This document shows positions 4,588-58,757 of a stretch of DNA of 64,000 bases, in pieces (positions within the stretch are counted from its first letter, which is position 1; every line of letters starts with the position of its first letter). The stretch is from the NCBI RefSeq assembly GCF_019278465.1, contig NZ_CP058983.1, forward strand, positions 558,001-622,000. The letters run 5' to 3'. The notes beneath the pieces are model-generated. The model saw only the letters and a program-made list of their open reading frames with translations, was not told the origin of the DNA and ran no database searches. This stretch comes from Tenacibaculum sp. AHE14PA (GTDB taxonomy: Bacteria > Bacteroidota > Bacteroidia > Flavobacteriales > Flavobacteriaceae). The position numbers and the translations under genes are program-made.

Positions 4588-4790
4588 TTATAGAGGTACT
4601 TAAGGGGCGATAAAAATACACTTTTTTTAAAAAAAAGCAGCATTAACACGATAATATTATAAGTGAATATATAAAAACTATATTAAACGAACAACTAAAG
4701 GCATAAAACTAAGGTAAAACACTTATTTACAAGCTCTTTAAACTTGCCTTAATTTTGAAGTTATTGACCTAAAAAAATAGATTTCTAATG

Positions 4791-53694: not shown

Positions 53695-54450
53695 TTAATC
53701 AATCCAATTTTTAAATTCCTTTACACGCTCTCTGCTTACTATTATTTCGGCATCAGTATAAGAATGTAATACTAATTGCAAGCGTGAGTTTGTATATGAA
53801 ACAATATCTTTTATGGCATTTATATGCACAATAAAAGTTCTATTTACTCTAAAAAAATGTTCTGGATTTAATTGCTCTTGCCAATGCTCTAATGAATCGT
53901 CTATTAAATAATTTCGATTAGAGTTTGTGTGTATATAAGTTGCTTTATTTTCTGAATAAAAACACTCAATTTCATCAATATGTATGATCTTTATATGCTG
54001 GCCAACCTTAATTGTAAATCGTTTTTTAAATTTTCTATCAACCGGATTTATCAGGAGTTTACGAATATCATCAATATTAACTTTTACTTCAGATTTTTGG
54101 GTTTGATTTTCTTTAAATTTATCTACTGCAACCTTTAGTTCGTCTTCATCGAGTGGTTTTAACAAATAATCAATTGAATTTAATTTAAATGCTTTTAATG
54201 CATATTCATCGTAAGCTGTTGTAAAAATAATGGCCGATTTAACTTCAACTTCTTCAAAAATCTCAAAAGATAACCCGTCTGATAATTGAATATCTAAAAA
54301 AATTAAATCTGGATGCTCGTTATTCTGAAACCAATTAATAGATTCTTCTACAGAATGCAACATCGTTTTTACTTCTATTTCTAATACAGACAACATTCTG
54401 TTTAAACGTCTTGCTGCTGGCTTTTCATCTTCAATAATAATAACATTCAT
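53695..54450 (-). CDS. LytTR-family response regulator
   Basis: 251 residues. An N-terminal receiver domain (1-120) has the acidic pocket Glu7/Asp8 and phospho-acceptor Asp53 (LIFLDIQLSDG), with Thr and Lys in IIFTTAYDEY and YLLKPL. The C-terminal LytTR DNA-binding domain (about 145-250) shows IKIIHIDEIECFYSENKATYIHT and FFRVNRTFIVHINAI. The histidine kinase encoded at the other end of this operon is the obvious partner. The gene lies 12 bp after the last 2TM gene. Confidence 0.93.
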   Translation of the reverse strand: MNVIIIEDEKPAARRLNRMLSVLEIEVKTMLHSVEESINWFQNNEHPDLIFLDIQLSDGLSFEIFEEVEVKSAIIFTTAYDEYALKAFKLNSIDYLLKPLDEDELKVAVDKFKENQTQKSEVKVNIDDIRKLLINPVDRKFKKRFTIKVGQHIKIIHIDEIECFYSENKATYIHTNSNRNYLIDDSLEHWQEQLNPEHFFRVNRTFIVHINAIKDIVSYTNSRLQLVLHSYTDAEIIVSRERVKEFKNWID

Positions 54451-54462
54451 AGTTCTTATTTA

Positions 54463-54771
54463 TTATTTTTCATCCATGTATTCTTTTATTTTTCGCTCTT
54501 CCCAGTTTTTACTAAACAGGTTTTGTTTGCTATACACTTTTACACCGTGTAGTACCAAAATAATTCCCCACCACAAGAAAAAACGATAATTATCTATATC
54601 AAAAAAAGCTTCTTTAAATGAATCACCTAATTTAATATCTTTATAAATTCGGCGTGCTATAAAAAACAAATTTACAAGTATATATACAGATAAATGTTTG
54701 TAAAATTGTTTAAGTTCTTCAACTTTTTTTTGAGCTACTAGGTATTTTTCTGAGTAATTATTAGTTTCCAT
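54463..54771 (-). CDS. 2TM domain protein (array copy 4)
   Basis: 102 residues. I chose the ATG at 54771 (METNNYSEKY), aligning with the starts of the sister proteins; an ATG at 54789 overlaps the upstream stop. A charged helix ending VEELKQFYKHL is followed by a first membrane helix, a polar loop (KDIKLGDSFKEAF), a second membrane helix around FFLWWGIILVLHGVKVY and a conserved tail NWEERKIKEYMDEK. Same architecture as the three genes upstream and as the C-terminus of the kinase. Function of the 2TM domain is unknown. Confidence 0.85.
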   Translation of the reverse strand: METNNYSEKYLVAQKKVEELKQFYKHLSVYILVNLFFIARRIYKDIKLGDSFKEAFFDIDNYRFFLWWGIILVLHGVKVYSKQNLFSKNWEERKIKEYMDEK

Positions 54772-54775
54772 AATT

Positions 54776-55090
54776 TTATTTTTTTTCATTCATAAACTCC
54801 TTTACTTTTTTGTTTTCCCAGGTATCGAGAAAAGTTATTTTACTTTTAAAAACATACAAACCGTGAATTAAAACACCAAAAGCCCATAATAAAGAGTTTA
54901 TCCACATATTAGCTCGTATCCACTTTAAAGTTCCTGCATTATGAATATGGTTTTCAAAAAAACTAAATATTGTATTCGAAAAAACCGCTAATACAACCAT
55001 CATAATTACAAATATTTGCAAATGGTTATAAAAATTCTTGATCCTTTTTACTTTTTTTTCTGCTTGTAAATAATTTGTTTCCGATTCCAT
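54776..55090 (-). CDS. 2TM domain protein (array copy 3)
   Basis: 104 residues with the same plan: helix KKVKRIKNFYNHL, first membrane helix (about 28-48), a longer loop with NAGTLKWIRANMW, a second membrane helix (LLWAFGVLIHGLYVF) and the tail DTWENKKVKEFMNEKK. It is the most diverged copy in the hydrophobic parts. Separated by 2 bp from the copy upstream. Confidence 0.88.
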   Translation of the reverse strand: MESETNYLQAEKKVKRIKNFYNHLQIFVIMMVVLAVFSNTIFSFFENHIHNAGTLKWIRANMWINSLLWAFGVLIHGLYVFKSKITFLDTWENKKVKEFMNEKK

Positions 55091-55092
55091 AA

Positions 55093-55413
55093 TTAAAATT
55101 TATTATCGTCCATATATTGTTCTATCTTTTTTTTCTCCCAATCTTTTCCGAAGAATAAATTAGAACCAAAAACTCCTAACCAATGAAAAAACAGTCCTAT
55201 TCCCCAAAACAACCAAGTAGAATACGTGCCAAAATGCGTAACCGCTTCTATAAAATTATAGGTACCATCGTTCATTAAGCCGAATACAATAACTGCTGAT
55301 ATGAAAATATTTATAACAATAAAAACTGCTAGATGAATATAAAATCCTTTAATTTTTTCTACTCGCTTTTTTGCAAGTATGTATTTTTGCTCTTCAGAAT
55401 AATCTCTTTCCAT
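55093..55413 (-). CDS. 2TM domain protein (array copy 2)
   Basis: 106 residues: helix KKRVEKIKGFYIHL, first membrane helix with VINIFISAVIVF, an extra polar loop (NDGTYNFIEAVTHFG), second membrane helix LFWGIGLFFHWLGVFG, tail KDWEKKKIEQYMDDN. Only 1 bp separates it from the copy upstream. Confidence 0.88.
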   Translation of the reverse strand: MERDYSEEQKYILAKKRVEKIKGFYIHLAVFIVINIFISAVIVFGLMNDGTYNFIEAVTHFGTYSTWLFWGIGLFFHWLGVFGSNLFFGKDWEKKKIEQYMDDNKF

Positions 55414-55414
55414 C

Positions 55415-55711
55415 TTATTTATAGTTTTTATCTTCGTTCATTAATTCTTTAATCTTTCGTTCTTCCCAGTTTTTTGTTAAACCTGTTTTGTTAAACCCAA
55501 AAACATTTAACCAATGGCAAAAAAGACCTGTTCCCCACCCTAATGCAGAAAACCAAAACCAATGAAAATGTGGTTCGAATTTTAAGTTTACAAAAATTAT
55601 TACAGGTATAATAATACAGTATATTGCTAAGTGTGTATAAAACCCTTTAATTTTTTTTACTCTTTTTTTTGCTTGTGTATACTTTTGCTCTGCTATATAT
55701 TTATCTTCCAT
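55415..55711 (-). CDS. 2TM domain protein (array copy 1)
   Basis: 98 residues, closest to the 2TM domain at the end of the histidine kinase: helix KKRVKKIKGFYTHL, first membrane helix (IIIPVIIFVNLKF), FHWFWF, second membrane helix WGTGLFCHWLNVFG, tail NWEERKIKELMNEDKNYK. The FHWFWF stretch and the DKNYK end are shared with the kinase, suggesting a duplication of that part. 1 bp after the kinase stop. Confidence 0.9.
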   Translation of the reverse strand: MEDKYIAEQKYTQAKKRVKKIKGFYTHLAIYCIIIPVIIFVNLKFEPHFHWFWFSALGWGTGLFCHWLNVFGFNKTGLTKNWEERKIKELMNEDKNYK

Positions 55712-55712
55712 C

Positions 55713-57068
55713 TTACTTATAATTTTTATCGTCCTTCATCATTTCTTTAATCTTACGCTCTTCCCAATTTTTTCCTAAGAAAATATTGTAATTATTTACT
55801 TCTAAAAAATGAAACGTTAAGCCTACTCCCCATCCAAAAATCGGAAACCAAAACCAATGAAAACCTGGTGAAAATCTTAAATTTATAAATATTAAAAAAG
55901 GAATTACAATACAGTAAGAGGCTAAGTTTTGATAAAATTCTTTTAATTTCTCTACCTTTTCTACAGCTCTTACATACTTGCTGTTTTCTATATTTTTTGA
56001 ATTGTATGACATATTATTTGTTTTTGTTAACAGCGGTAAACTCACTGTAAATGTTTTATTATTATTTTTAATTTCTACCCGTTCATCAGTTATTAAACCA
56101 TAACGATCTGCAATATTTCTTAACCCTACTTTTGTGCTTTTACCTATTGCTTCTTTAGGATTAACCGTATTTTGAATTTGTAAAAAACCATCTTCTTCAA
56201 AAATGTGAATTTGTAAAGGTTTTTTTGATGAAACTACATTGTGCTTTACTGCATTTTCGAGTAATAATTGTAAAGACAATGGCACTATTTTTAAATCTGA
56301 GTTACTTACCGTGGTTGGAATATTAAATTGCACAGCATCTTCAAATCGCATTTGTAACAACTCCATATATGTTTTTGCAAACCTTAATTCTTCTTCTAAC
56401 GGAATTAATTCTTTATTTCGCTGCTCTAAAACATAACGATATACTTTTGATAATTTGGTGGTAAACCTTTCTGCTTGCTTTGGATTTTCGTCTATTAAAG
56501 AGGTTAAAACGTTTAAACTATTAAATAAAAAATGTGGATCTAACTGACTTTTTAAAGTTTCAAACTTTGCGCTTTCTGTTTTCGCTACAATTTCGTGTTG
56601 AGTAGTTTCTTGTTTTAACGAAGCTTTCCAATTAATCATAAAGCTACGTGCATGAAAAAAGCTTGCAATTCCTAAAGAAATTATAATAGCAAATAAATGA
56701 GACCAAAATAACTTCCCATCAAAAAAACCAGAAAAATCATGCTTAAAAATTAGTACATATTGTATGTAATGAATTAATAAAACCGCTATAATAGTGTAAC
56801 AAATGGTTGCAATTACTCCAGCCCAAACTCTTTCGTTCGTTTGTGTAGCCCAGTTCCATCTAGTATTTAAATAATTATTAATTATTCCGTTTCCTAAGCC
56901 CAATATAAAAGAATACATTGCTGAAAACAAAAATACAACTGCAGCTCCTTTAATAGTAAATTGCTGATTTATAATTGTAAAAATTACACCAAAAATGATC
57001 GTAAGTTTTAAACAAACTAAAAAATCTTTTTTCAAACTTATAAATGTATTGGATGTATATTTTTCCAT
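55713..57068 (-). CDS. LytS/YpdA-type sensor histidine kinase fused to a C-terminal 2TM domain
   Basis: 451 residues. Four N-terminal membrane helices (about 15-35, 42-60, 82-105 and 121-140) are followed by a His_kinase domain with phospho-acceptor His179 (QLDPHFLFNSLNVL) and an ATP-binding part with LLLENAVKHNVV and VGLRNIADRYG. From residue 353 a complete 2TM domain is attached (KVEKLKEFYQNL, two membrane helices, NWEERKIKEMMKDDKNYK). The partner regulator is the LytTR protein at the far end of the operon. The fusion point has an in-frame Met (353), consistent with loss of a stop between two genes. Confidence 0.9.
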   Translation of the reverse strand: MEKYTSNTFISLKKDFLVCLKLTIIFGVIFTIINQQFTIKGAAVVFLFSAMYSFILGLGNGIINNYLNTRWNWATQTNERVWAGVIATICYTIIAVLLIHYIQYVLIFKHDFSGFFDGKLFWSHLFAIIISLGIASFFHARSFMINWKASLKQETTQHEIVAKTESAKFETLKSQLDPHFLFNSLNVLTSLIDENPKQAERFTTKLSKVYRYVLEQRNKELIPLEEELRFAKTYMELLQMRFEDAVQFNIPTTVSNSDLKIVPLSLQLLLENAVKHNVVSSKKPLQIHIFEEDGFLQIQNTVNPKEAIGKSTKVGLRNIADRYGLITDERVEIKNNNKTFTVSLPLLTKTNNMSYNSKNIENSKYVRAVEKVEKLKEFYQNLASYCIVIPFLIFINLRFSPGFHWFWFPIFGWGVGLTFHFLEVNNYNIFLGKNWEERKIKEMMKDDKNYK

Positions 57069-57081
57069 TGCTATCTTATTA

Positions 57082-57498
57082 CTAAAATTTAATTTTTAAA
57101 GATACATTTTTATCAGCAACCGTAAATTTTGCTTGTTCATATTGTGGCGGCCCATATGGATTAATTACATTGTTTGATGAACCGTAATCTTCTAATGGCA
57201 TTCCGTTCGATTTAAAATCCATTTTACCATTATTATTTTTATCGTGAAAACAAATAACAGCATATTCTCCTAATGGTACGTCTTTAAAAACAACCGTACT
57301 TTTACCTTCTTTTATTATCGTTGATGCTGCTTTTATTGGTTTTTTCCTGAAATTGTCTTTAGTATATAAAGCATAACTTATTTTACCTAAGTCTGAAGTC
57401 GCATTTACAACTGTTACTTGTATTTCTTTATTCTGAGCTGTTAATTCGGCCACTATAAAGAGTTGAATTAATATTAATGTTGTAGTTAAGAATTTCAT
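57082..57498 (-). CDS. DUF2141 domain exported protein
   Basis: 138 residues. A signal peptide ends near residue 21 (LTAQ). The rest is a small beta-sandwich with KISYALYTKDNF, DVPLGEYAVICFHDKNNNGKMDF and EDYGSSNN, the pattern of the DUF2141 family. The DKNNNGKMDF stretch resembles a calcium-binding loop. It leads the operon that continues with the histidine kinase 13 bp downstream, and could be the extracytoplasmic ligand or output of that system. Function unknown. Confidence 0.85.
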   Translation of the reverse strand: MKFLTTTLILIQLFIVAELTAQNKEIQVTVVNATSDLGKISYALYTKDNFRKKPIKAASTIIKEGKSTVVFKDVPLGEYAVICFHDKNNNGKMDFKSNGMPLEDYGSSNNVINPYGPPQYEQAKFTVADKNVSLKIKF

Positions 57499-57651
57499 GA
57501 TTCTTCTTTTTTATTGGTTAATTACACTACAAATATGCTGCTGATCTATCGTTTTTAAAACTAAAAACAACTGAACTGTATTTTTTTTAGGATGAACTGT
57601 AACAATTCGTATTTTTGAGCTACTTATAACCAATCAACCATACTAAACTTA

Positions 57652-58146
57652 GTGAATAAAGAGTTAGAAAATAAATTTTTATCTGATTTTGAAGCCAATC
57701 AAAACATTGTGCATAAAATTTGTAGGCTTTATACTACAAACCAAGATGCTCATAACGATTTGTTTCAGGAGGTAACAATTCAACTATGGAAAAACTACAG
57801 TAAGTTTAGAGGAGATGCTAAATTTAGTACATGGATGTATAGAGTGGCTTTAAACACCGCAATTTCTTTATACAGAAAATCTACTAGAACTGTAAAAACA
57901 CAAGATATTACCGACTATGCTTTTAAAATTAAAGCCGTTGACTATGATGAAACAGAAGAATTACAATTAAAAGCACTTTACAATGCCATTAGAAAATTAA
58001 ATGACATTGACAAAGCACTAATATTTTTATATCTAGAAGATAAACCTTACAAAGAGATATCTGTAACTTTAGGTATTAGTGAAGTAAATGCTCGTGTGAA
58101 GATGAACAGAGCAAAGGATAAGTTAAAAAAAGTATTAAACCCATAA
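57652..58146 (+). CDS. ECF-type RNA polymerase sigma factor
   Basis: 164 residues. Region 2 (about 10-75) includes DAHNDLFQEVTIQLWKNYSKF and STWMYRVALNTAISLYRK. Region 4 (about 105-160) includes LNDIDKALIFLYLEDKPYKEISVTLGISEVNARVKMNRAKDKL. The start is a GTG at 57652, since no ATG precedes the conserved region. A TATTTTTG box at 57610-57617 may be its -7 element. The membrane protein 2 bp downstream takes the place usually held by an anti-sigma. Confidence 0.92.
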   Translation: MNKELENKFLSDFEANQNIVHKICRLYTTNQDAHNDLFQEVTIQLWKNYSKFRGDAKFSTWMYRVALNTAISLYRKSTRTVKTQDITDYAFKIKAVDYDETEELQLKALYNAIRKLNDIDKALIFLYLEDKPYKEISVTLGISEVNARVKMNRAKDKLKKVLNP

Positions 58147-58148
58147 TA

Positions 58149-58757
58149 ATGGATTTAGATAAATATAAAAAAGCATGGGATAACCAGCCTCAAGAAACAG
58201 ATACGGTTTCTAAAGTTGATATCTATAAAATGGCACATTCAAGATCATCATCAATCGTAAAATGGATTTTTATTATTGGAGTATTAGAGTTTATACTCTT
58301 AAACTCCATGTATTTTTTCGTTGATATGGATGAAGCCAATAAGGAATATGAAAAAATAGGTTTAGGTCAATTTGTTTTTTATTCTCAAATAGTAGCTTAC
58401 ATCATATTGTTTTATTTTTTGATGAAGTTTTACTTAAATTATAAACGTATATCAGTTACAGACTCTACCAAAGAATTAATGACAAAAATTGTAAATACGA
58501 GAAAAACAGTTAAGTATTACGTTTTGTTTAACTTATCGTATTTATTTGTAATTGCTGTTGCTGTTGCTGTTGCAACTGTTAAATCTCATCCAGAGTTTAC
58601 CAATTCAAAAATGCTAGTTTTTATTGCAGTTACAGCTATTATGTCTTTAATAATGTTAGTATTACTTTGGTTGTTTTACCAGTTAATTTACGGTATTCTA
58701 TTACGTAAATTAAACAAAAATCATAAAGAGTTATCTAAACTAGAAGACTTGAATTAA
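58149..58757 (+). CDS. Membrane protein, candidate anti-sigma partner
   Basis: 202 residues. The first 37 are soluble and start MDLDKYKKAWDNQPQ. Then come four predicted membrane helices (about 38-58, 74-94, 116-138 and 150-173) and a basic C-terminus. The MDLDKYKKAW start and the gene position just after an ECF sigma gene suggest a role as sigma-factor inhibitor or sensor, but no anti-sigma domain can be named. It ends at a strong terminator. Confidence 0.75.
   Translation: MDLDKYKKAWDNQPQETDTVSKVDIYKMAHSRSSSIVKWIFIIGVLEFILLNSMYFFVDMDEANKEYEKIGLGQFVFYSQIVAYIILFYFLMKFYLNYKRISVTDSTKELMTKIVNTRKTVKYYVLFNLSYLFVIAVAVAVATVKSHPEFTNSKMLVFIAVTAIMSLIMLVLLWLFYQLIYGILLRKLNKNHKELSKLEDLN

Follow-up and report, generated by a model that had tools for sequence, protein, structure and literature searches.

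Comparison with described systems

In the SaePQRS system of Staphylococcus aureus, an autoregulated operon encodes SaeP and SaeQ, which join the kinase in a complex and elicit its activity as a phosphatase (PMC5083920). LytTR Regulatory Systems such as HdrRM and BrsRM carry 9-bp direct repeats, mostly with 12-bp spacing, just upstream of an autoactivated promoter (PMC6193735). We compared with these an operon of Tenacibaculum sp. AHE14PA located in a 64,000-nucleotide stretch of contig NZ_CP058983.1 (positions 558,001 to 622,000; hereafter the window, whose own numbering we use). On the minus strand, this array operon runs from a DUF2141 gene, through a LytS-type histidine kinase that ends in a 2TM domain and four free 2TM proteins, to a LytTR response regulator.

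Like SaePQRS, the array operon brings together a secreted protein (a lipoprotein in S. aureus), a small multi-transmembrane protein, a kinase and a regulator in what would likewise be an autoregulated unit (PMC5083920). The staphylococcal kinase differs in having no tail related to the accessory protein, and there is one membrane protein in that system, versus one to seven in the loci considered here. The likeness is one of layout and logic only. The operator and the regulator family of SaePQRS differ from those of the array operon.

The LytTR Regulatory Systems also place one or more membrane proteins beside a LytTR regulator, with the same repeat layout (PMC6193735), and a direct repeat of about 9 bp with 12-bp spacing can be recognized in the sequence upstream of the array operon. 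By this logic, the 2TM proteins would inhibit the regulator directly and not the kinase. The described systems, however, in their minimal form consist of a regulator and a membrane inhibitor acting on it, without a kinase and with the regulator gene first, whereas in the array operon a kinase is present and the order is reversed, with the regulator last. Here, the regulator includes a receiver domain and its cognate kinase is intact, it is the kinase to which a 2TM domain is fused, and a 2TM-regulator fusion is labelled in none of the loci read. We consider direct action on the regulator unlikely.

A LytS-type kinase paired with a LytTR regulator is also found in BtsSR and YpdAB. BtsS is described as a seven-transmembrane receptor, whereas the model of the window's kinase shows four helices at the N terminus and a membrane hairpin beyond the ATPase domain, and this kinase is accompanied by the 2TM set. 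The regulator (53695-54450, minus strand, 251 residues) has receiver and LytTR DNA-binding domains, both found by Pfam; the nearest NCBIfam models, LytR and BtsR, score far under their cut-offs. The two genes of a kinase/LytTR pair mutated in F. johnsoniae (PMC10197871) bear consecutive locus tags, which leaves no room for 2TM genes between them, and the pair is probably not the same system. No description of a kinase/2TM/LytTR system was found among the matches listed from the open-licence literature, passages of PMC11237479, PMC6193735, PMC10057207, PMC5395568 and PMC10197871 included, and that literature yielded no known function of the 2TM domain. For this domain, which 130 of 149 sampled genomes of the family carry, the context can now be defined: the tailed kinase is its constant partner, and with it come a putative operator, a candidate regulon of small size and a genome in which the parts have been deleted naturally.

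A tailed kinase and its candidate membrane subunits

Our preferred reading, to which we assign a probability of about 0.6, is that the operon encodes an autoregulated LytS/LytTR two-component system in which the free 2TM proteins would be accessory membrane subunits of the kinase that act via its tail. The free proteins would hetero-oligomerise with the 2TM tail, and this assembly, together with the secreted DUF2141 protein, would set the balance between kinase and phosphatase. The regulator would bind the direct repeat and activate both its own operon and a locus encoding a TonB receptor, a DUF2141 protein and a TPR protein. Activation would yield more accessory proteins and hence feedback on the kinase, which is most likely negative by analogy with the effect of SaePQ on SaeS, although its direction is a guess. 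Extra copies would come and go by tandem duplication and loss, varying the assembly, and the state of the outer membrane or envelope is the likeliest guess for the signal.

The kinase (55713-57068, minus strand, 451 residues) comprises four N-terminal helices, a histidine domain with H179, an ATPase domain and the C-terminal 2TM tail. Pfam places His_kinase (PF06580) at residues 167-245 (E-value 1e-25) and 2TM (PF13239) at residues 367-445 (8e-28), giving a tail of the short-loop type at 55734-55970. In an alignment of 74 tailed kinases, H179, N272 and G315, residues of the phospho-acceptor and ATPase motifs, are invariant, as are the tail residues W405, W413, G416 and W435. In an AlphaFold2 model (mean pLDDT 78, pTM 0.42), four helices at the N terminus are followed by the kinase core and, at the C terminus, by a hairpin (359-399/407-424/435-450). 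The closest solved structure is the GanS kinase core, and the closest named kinases are from Tenacibaculum, with T. pelagium at 80% identity. By its sequence, the kinase is of the LytS type, with an intact core and membrane segments at both ends; as the domain preceding the tail is cytoplasmic, the 2TM hairpin should have its two ends in the cytoplasm. Weak second 2TM matches in some kinases had made the N-terminal membrane region a candidate for a further 2TM pair, which we rejected, as profile comparison reached at best a probability of 18% (E-value 0.001). None of 280 matching plasmid records carries at least 80% of the kinase in one place.

Four free copies follow on the minus strand. Copy 1 (55415-55711, 98 residues) is of the short-loop type, and copy 2 (55093-55413, 106 residues) and copy 4 (54463-54789, 108 residues, in the position usual for a last copy) are of the long-loop type, as assigned by tree and profile scores. 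Copy 3 (54776-55090, 104 residues) is fast-evolving and scores equally on both profiles, so that its class is ambiguous. The Pfam 2TM E-values of copies 1-4 are 3e-27, 4e-24, 2e-15 and 2e-21, and all five domains of the operon exceed the gathering cut-off. The initial annotation of this DNA had recognized the kinase-2TM fusion, the four free copies and the regulator as one operon that belongs together, and the open reading frames (ORFs) bear this out; profile-profile comparison identifies tail and free copies as the same domain with a probability of 99.9-100%. The annotation's suggestion that the free copies could assemble with the kinase into hetero-oligomers is, in our view, still the best candidate mechanism. 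The gaps of 1-4 bp that the annotation gave hold for kinase to copy 1 (1 bp), copy 1 to copy 2 (1 bp) and copy 2 to copy 3 (2 bp); copies 3 and 4 are 4 bp apart from the second ATG but overlap by 14 bp from the first. Copy 4 and the regulator are separated by 12 bp. A structural model of copy 2 predicts one long hairpin plus an end helix (pLDDT 83), while a fold search of the PDB with a free copy gave a best E-value of 3.7 and a sequence search nothing convincing.

Also within the annotated span, though unmentioned there, is the DUF2141 gene (57082-57498, minus strand), the first gene of the operon, with a signal peptide apparent by eye. In all 29 loci of the genus, the window included, the kinase gene is immediately preceded, at 9-52 bp, by a DUF2141 gene.

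We read 60 loci (one of the genus), 27 more of the genus, two at order level, eleven others and 80 with named records. The 60 were taken non-randomly from the strongest 2TM matches of a 149-genome family sample, and the 80 were the best matches to the full-length kinase. After loci with identical last 300 kinase residues were merged, 166 distinct loci with a tailed kinase remained, of which six without a regulator in view were excluded from the copy counts, leaving 160 closed loci. Counted as domains, so that a fused pair counts as two, there were 1, 2, 3, 4, 5, 6 and 7 free 2TM domains in 21, 39, 37, 37, 19, 6 and 1 of them; none had a tailed kinase without free copies. In a genus group of 52 loci (those of the genus, joined by the ones among the 80 whose kinases are most similar, some of them named Polaribacter), 2, 3, 4, 5 and 6 free domains were found in 4, 9, 21, 16 and 2 loci. 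The four-copy array of the window is thus typical. Its copy number had been singled out as what stands out, and these counts rule that out, four being the mode of the genus group. As for the suggested tie between copy number and the kinase/regulator pair, it is the presence of copies that is constant, while their number varies freely.

Natural fusions and losses

At L096, L156 and L160, a single ORF encodes a pair of fused 2TM domains; the latter two fusions probably go back to one event. A further candidate, L257, was left uncounted because its first half is too weak (E-value 0.0024). Together with the kinase-2TM fusion, these fusions suggest that the domains touch one another physically. L182 comes from a different family of the class; its tailless kinase, which has a LytTR gene beside it, is preceded at a distance of 3 bp by a free 2TM gene.

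A natural deletion occurs in G166, a genus member without a 2TM match. Its orthologous kinase, which nests among the tailed kinases in a tree, stops where the tail would start, with the regulator 9 bp on. A 17/18 operator is retained, and the tail, all 2TM genes and DUF2141 have been lost; between operator and kinase there is only a 22-codon ORF that by eye resembles a DUF2141 signal peptide. Three other genomes were considered as carriers of tailless orthologues and dropped from this argument: the G061 kinase groups, on a long branch, with another paralogue, and those of G007 and G022 also fall outside.

Several observations weigh against our preferred reading. The complex of tail and free copies is itself a proposal from sequence context. 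Loss of tail and array in G166 could have been one contiguous deletion, in which case only the loss of DUF2141 is separate, since that gene is found at the opposite end of the core. G128, from another genus and also without a 2TM match, has the order operator, DUF2141, tailless kinase and regulator, so that the circuit can exist without 2TM proteins; its kinase has an uncertain place in the tree, close to where the tailed kinases begin. Because loci were found through 2TM matches or the full-length kinase, the sample may contain too few tailed kinases that lack partners, and too few tailless kinases. The long- and short-loop classes discussed below were first cut by domain length and are not independent of it, and four loci (L067, L253, L265 and L270) have no clear long-loop copy. 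Finally, a 17/18 operator in G061 (L359:6893-6922) stands before a different, tailless kinase paralogue. The operator is therefore not necessarily private to this regulator, and paralogous systems may share the site. In G061, a 256-residue gene lies between that kinase and its LytTR gene.

Operator and candidate regulon

Upstream of DUF2141 lies a putative LytTR-type operator, the direct repeat TACAGTTCA-N12-TACAGTTCA (57572-57601, minus strand), for which the consensus is TACARYTCR-N12-TACARYTCR. The only exact match in the genome of the window is this site. In the genus group, 51 of 52 promoters score at least 15/18, versus 0.27% of 2600 shuffles, and with other repeat periods from 17 to 26 at most 5 promoters do so; among distinct promoters, 49 of 50 score at least 16/18. 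The promoter of L208, which lacks the site, was kept in these counts. Because the consensus was derived from genus-group sequences, a fairer test is provided by the loci outside the group, where 79 of 110 score at least 16/18 within 3.5 kb upstream of the kinase, versus 0.4% of shuffles. A -7-box-like element, CATATTTG (57530-57537, minus strand), follows with 38 bp from operator to TTTG, and the TTTG is found at this distance in all 44 genus-group promoters that are long enough (42 of 42 distinct ones). We take the TTTG to resemble the Bacteroidetes -7 box, and the fixed distance suits activation.

Allowing at most two mismatches to the operator extended by GT, we found 120 sites in 40 genus genomes, versus 8 for the reversed pattern. 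We took 20 site regions, of which 17 were paired-site (a subset of such pairs) and three single-site. A TonB-receptor-like gene and a TPR gene are present in all 17 paired-site regions, 14 of which also have a labelled DUF2141. Two of the single-site regions have no TonB-receptor, DUF2141 or TPR genes, and the third is that of G166. Of 59 loci outside the genus, 41 have a homologue of the TPR gene upstream of the kinase and in the same orientation, at a median of 11 bp, and 20 have a receptor homologue further upstream, so the same genes are linked either by neighbourhood or by operator. The genome of the window has eight two-mismatch sites, close to the control level of six. One of them, a 16/18 site, precedes a gene for a 268-residue protein, DUF2141 and TPR, beside a receptor gene that is not itself preceded by a site scoring as well; given this 16/18 site, we abandoned the idea that the regulon is the array operon only. 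The 268-residue protein, encoded between operator and DUF2141, looks secreted (G000:C1:1457389-1458195; L358:7390-8196).

The TPR gene is present in 27 of the 33 genus genomes with 2TM matches and in none of the seven without, a pattern part of which general gene loss may explain, as the seven are mostly small genomes. In one genus genome without a 2TM match (L344, G162:C9, site at 4672), a one-mismatch operator precedes a 187-residue gene of unknown kind.

These results bear on whether the free 2TM proteins are instead the output, that is, membrane-acting effectors whose level the kinase would sense via its 2TM tail in a titration feedback. The array does lie inside the regulated operon, one of the two operator-linked loci discernible in the genome of the window, and copy number varies as dosage would. 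The operator-linked genes outside the operon, however, encode a TonB receptor, DUF2141 and TPR and not 2TM proteins, and elsewhere 2TM is fused to a helix-turn-helix domain or to dihydrofolate reductase, which looks more like a module for anchoring or pairing than like an effector. A role of the 2TM proteins chiefly as output is in our view doubtful, and less likely than one as kinase subunits.

Classes and origin of the free copies

The initial annotation had taken a duplication of the tail of its own kinase as the likely origin of copy 1, on the strength of shared strings. The strings are real, but FHWFWF (17/29 kinase tails and 25/125 free copies of the genus) and NWEERKIKE (11/29 and 9/125) are so widespread that they are family motifs; only DKNYK (4/29 and 1/125) is peculiar. 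In a tree of the 154 genus domains (29 tails and 125 free copies; 29 of 150 inner branches starred), two halves part at 99* support. One half, of 84 rows, holds all 29 tails and most short-loop copies, with copy 3 of the window on a long branch, and the other, of 70 rows, holds most long-loop copies, including all 29 last copies. A single clade unites the tails, with a support of 96* (99* in a subset of 67 rows). In approximately unbiased (AU) tests on that subset, which covers 13 of the 29 genus loci, chosen by us, constraining the window's tail and copy 1 as sisters cost 74 log units (p-AU 6e-5), and constraining all five window domains to a single origin cost 349 (p 4e-31). Tree and test together rule out the proposed duplication. 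Nor is divergence graded along the array: tail identity to copies 1-4 is 58, 40, 33 and 41%, and synonymous difference between tail and free copies is high (pS 0.62-0.78).

Tail duplication may have occurred in other lineages, since three of the 125 genus free copies (L037, L157 and L178) score best on the kinase-tail profile and group with tails, and 54 of 496 free copies across all loci score best on that profile. At L225, in Flavobacterium, three similar last-type copies stand consecutively and are already divergent, which suggests that arrays grow by tandem duplication. In one free copy of L161 (G164:C1:1625843-1626082) there is an in-frame TGA; arrays apparently also shed copies by decay.

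Profile scores place a long-loop copy in 156 of the 160 closed loci, in the last position in 150, and in all 21 one-copy loci; 2000 rounds of label shuffling gave maxima of 152, 107 and 19, respectively. The sequences indicate that the classes predate the genus. In eight pairs of relatives, dN/dS was 0.04-0.30 for orthologous free copies, 0-0.08 for kinase tails and 0.02-0.05 for regulators, a range that excludes copies 1 and 2 of window/L192 (saturated dS) and the paralogue pairings of L164/L165 (copy 4 with copy 1) and L156/L168 (copy 3 with copy 2). On these estimates the free copies are under purifying selection, looser than that on the tail, and so appear to be retained, though less strictly.

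Neutral amplification, in which redundant duplicates are kept by chance, would fit the range of 2 to 6 copies within the genus group and the in-frame stop just described. It is hard to square with purifying selection, with classes older than the genus, and with a long-loop copy that is nearly universal and last, and we regard it as very improbable.

The same regularities allow a wider, more tentative extension of the kinase-subunit reading, which we consider possible but would not favour: the system might be a modular, family-wide membrane sensor, with the kinase core held between two anchors and a tail hairpin that must pair with a long-loop 2TM protein. Subunits swapped or added would re-tune the circuit, and free subunits would restrain their own operon, so that the system would count its own membrane subunits.

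The 2TM domain elsewhere and neighbouring genes

Of the six 2TM domains in the genome of the window (2.82 Mb, one contig), five belong to the array operon; the sixth is fused to a Cro/C1-type helix-turn-helix domain (G000:C1:873292-873510), and a similar fusion is found at L191:4775-5233. Such a fusion is a probable membrane-tethered transcription factor. Besides the family sample, a 2TM domain was found in 25 of 118 genomes of a phylum sample and 33 of 40 of a genus sample. Fourteen of the 130 family genomes with the domain have a single one, in frames of 147-316 residues, none as long as the tailed kinase. Nine of these 14 were readable, and six look by eye like 2TM-dihydrofolate reductase fusions (L274, L277, L278, L280, L281 and L286), one of which, L274 (G121), was confirmed by Pfam (DHFR_1 E-value 6e-63, 2TM 4e-22). 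This is apparently a membrane-anchored folate enzyme in genomes without another 2TM match. At L190, a 2TM gene overlaps a gene that by eye resembles folA.

At L157 (= L224), L171, L174, L177 and L203, the array operon is followed, after 83-182 bp, by another kinase/LytTR pair, which has no 2TM. In the window, a divergent pair of genes for an extracytoplasmic function (ECF) sigma factor and a 202-residue membrane protein (57652-58757) shares the intergenic region that contains the operator; this pair adjoins the array in 8 of the 29 loci of the genus and in 2 of the 59 from outside it.

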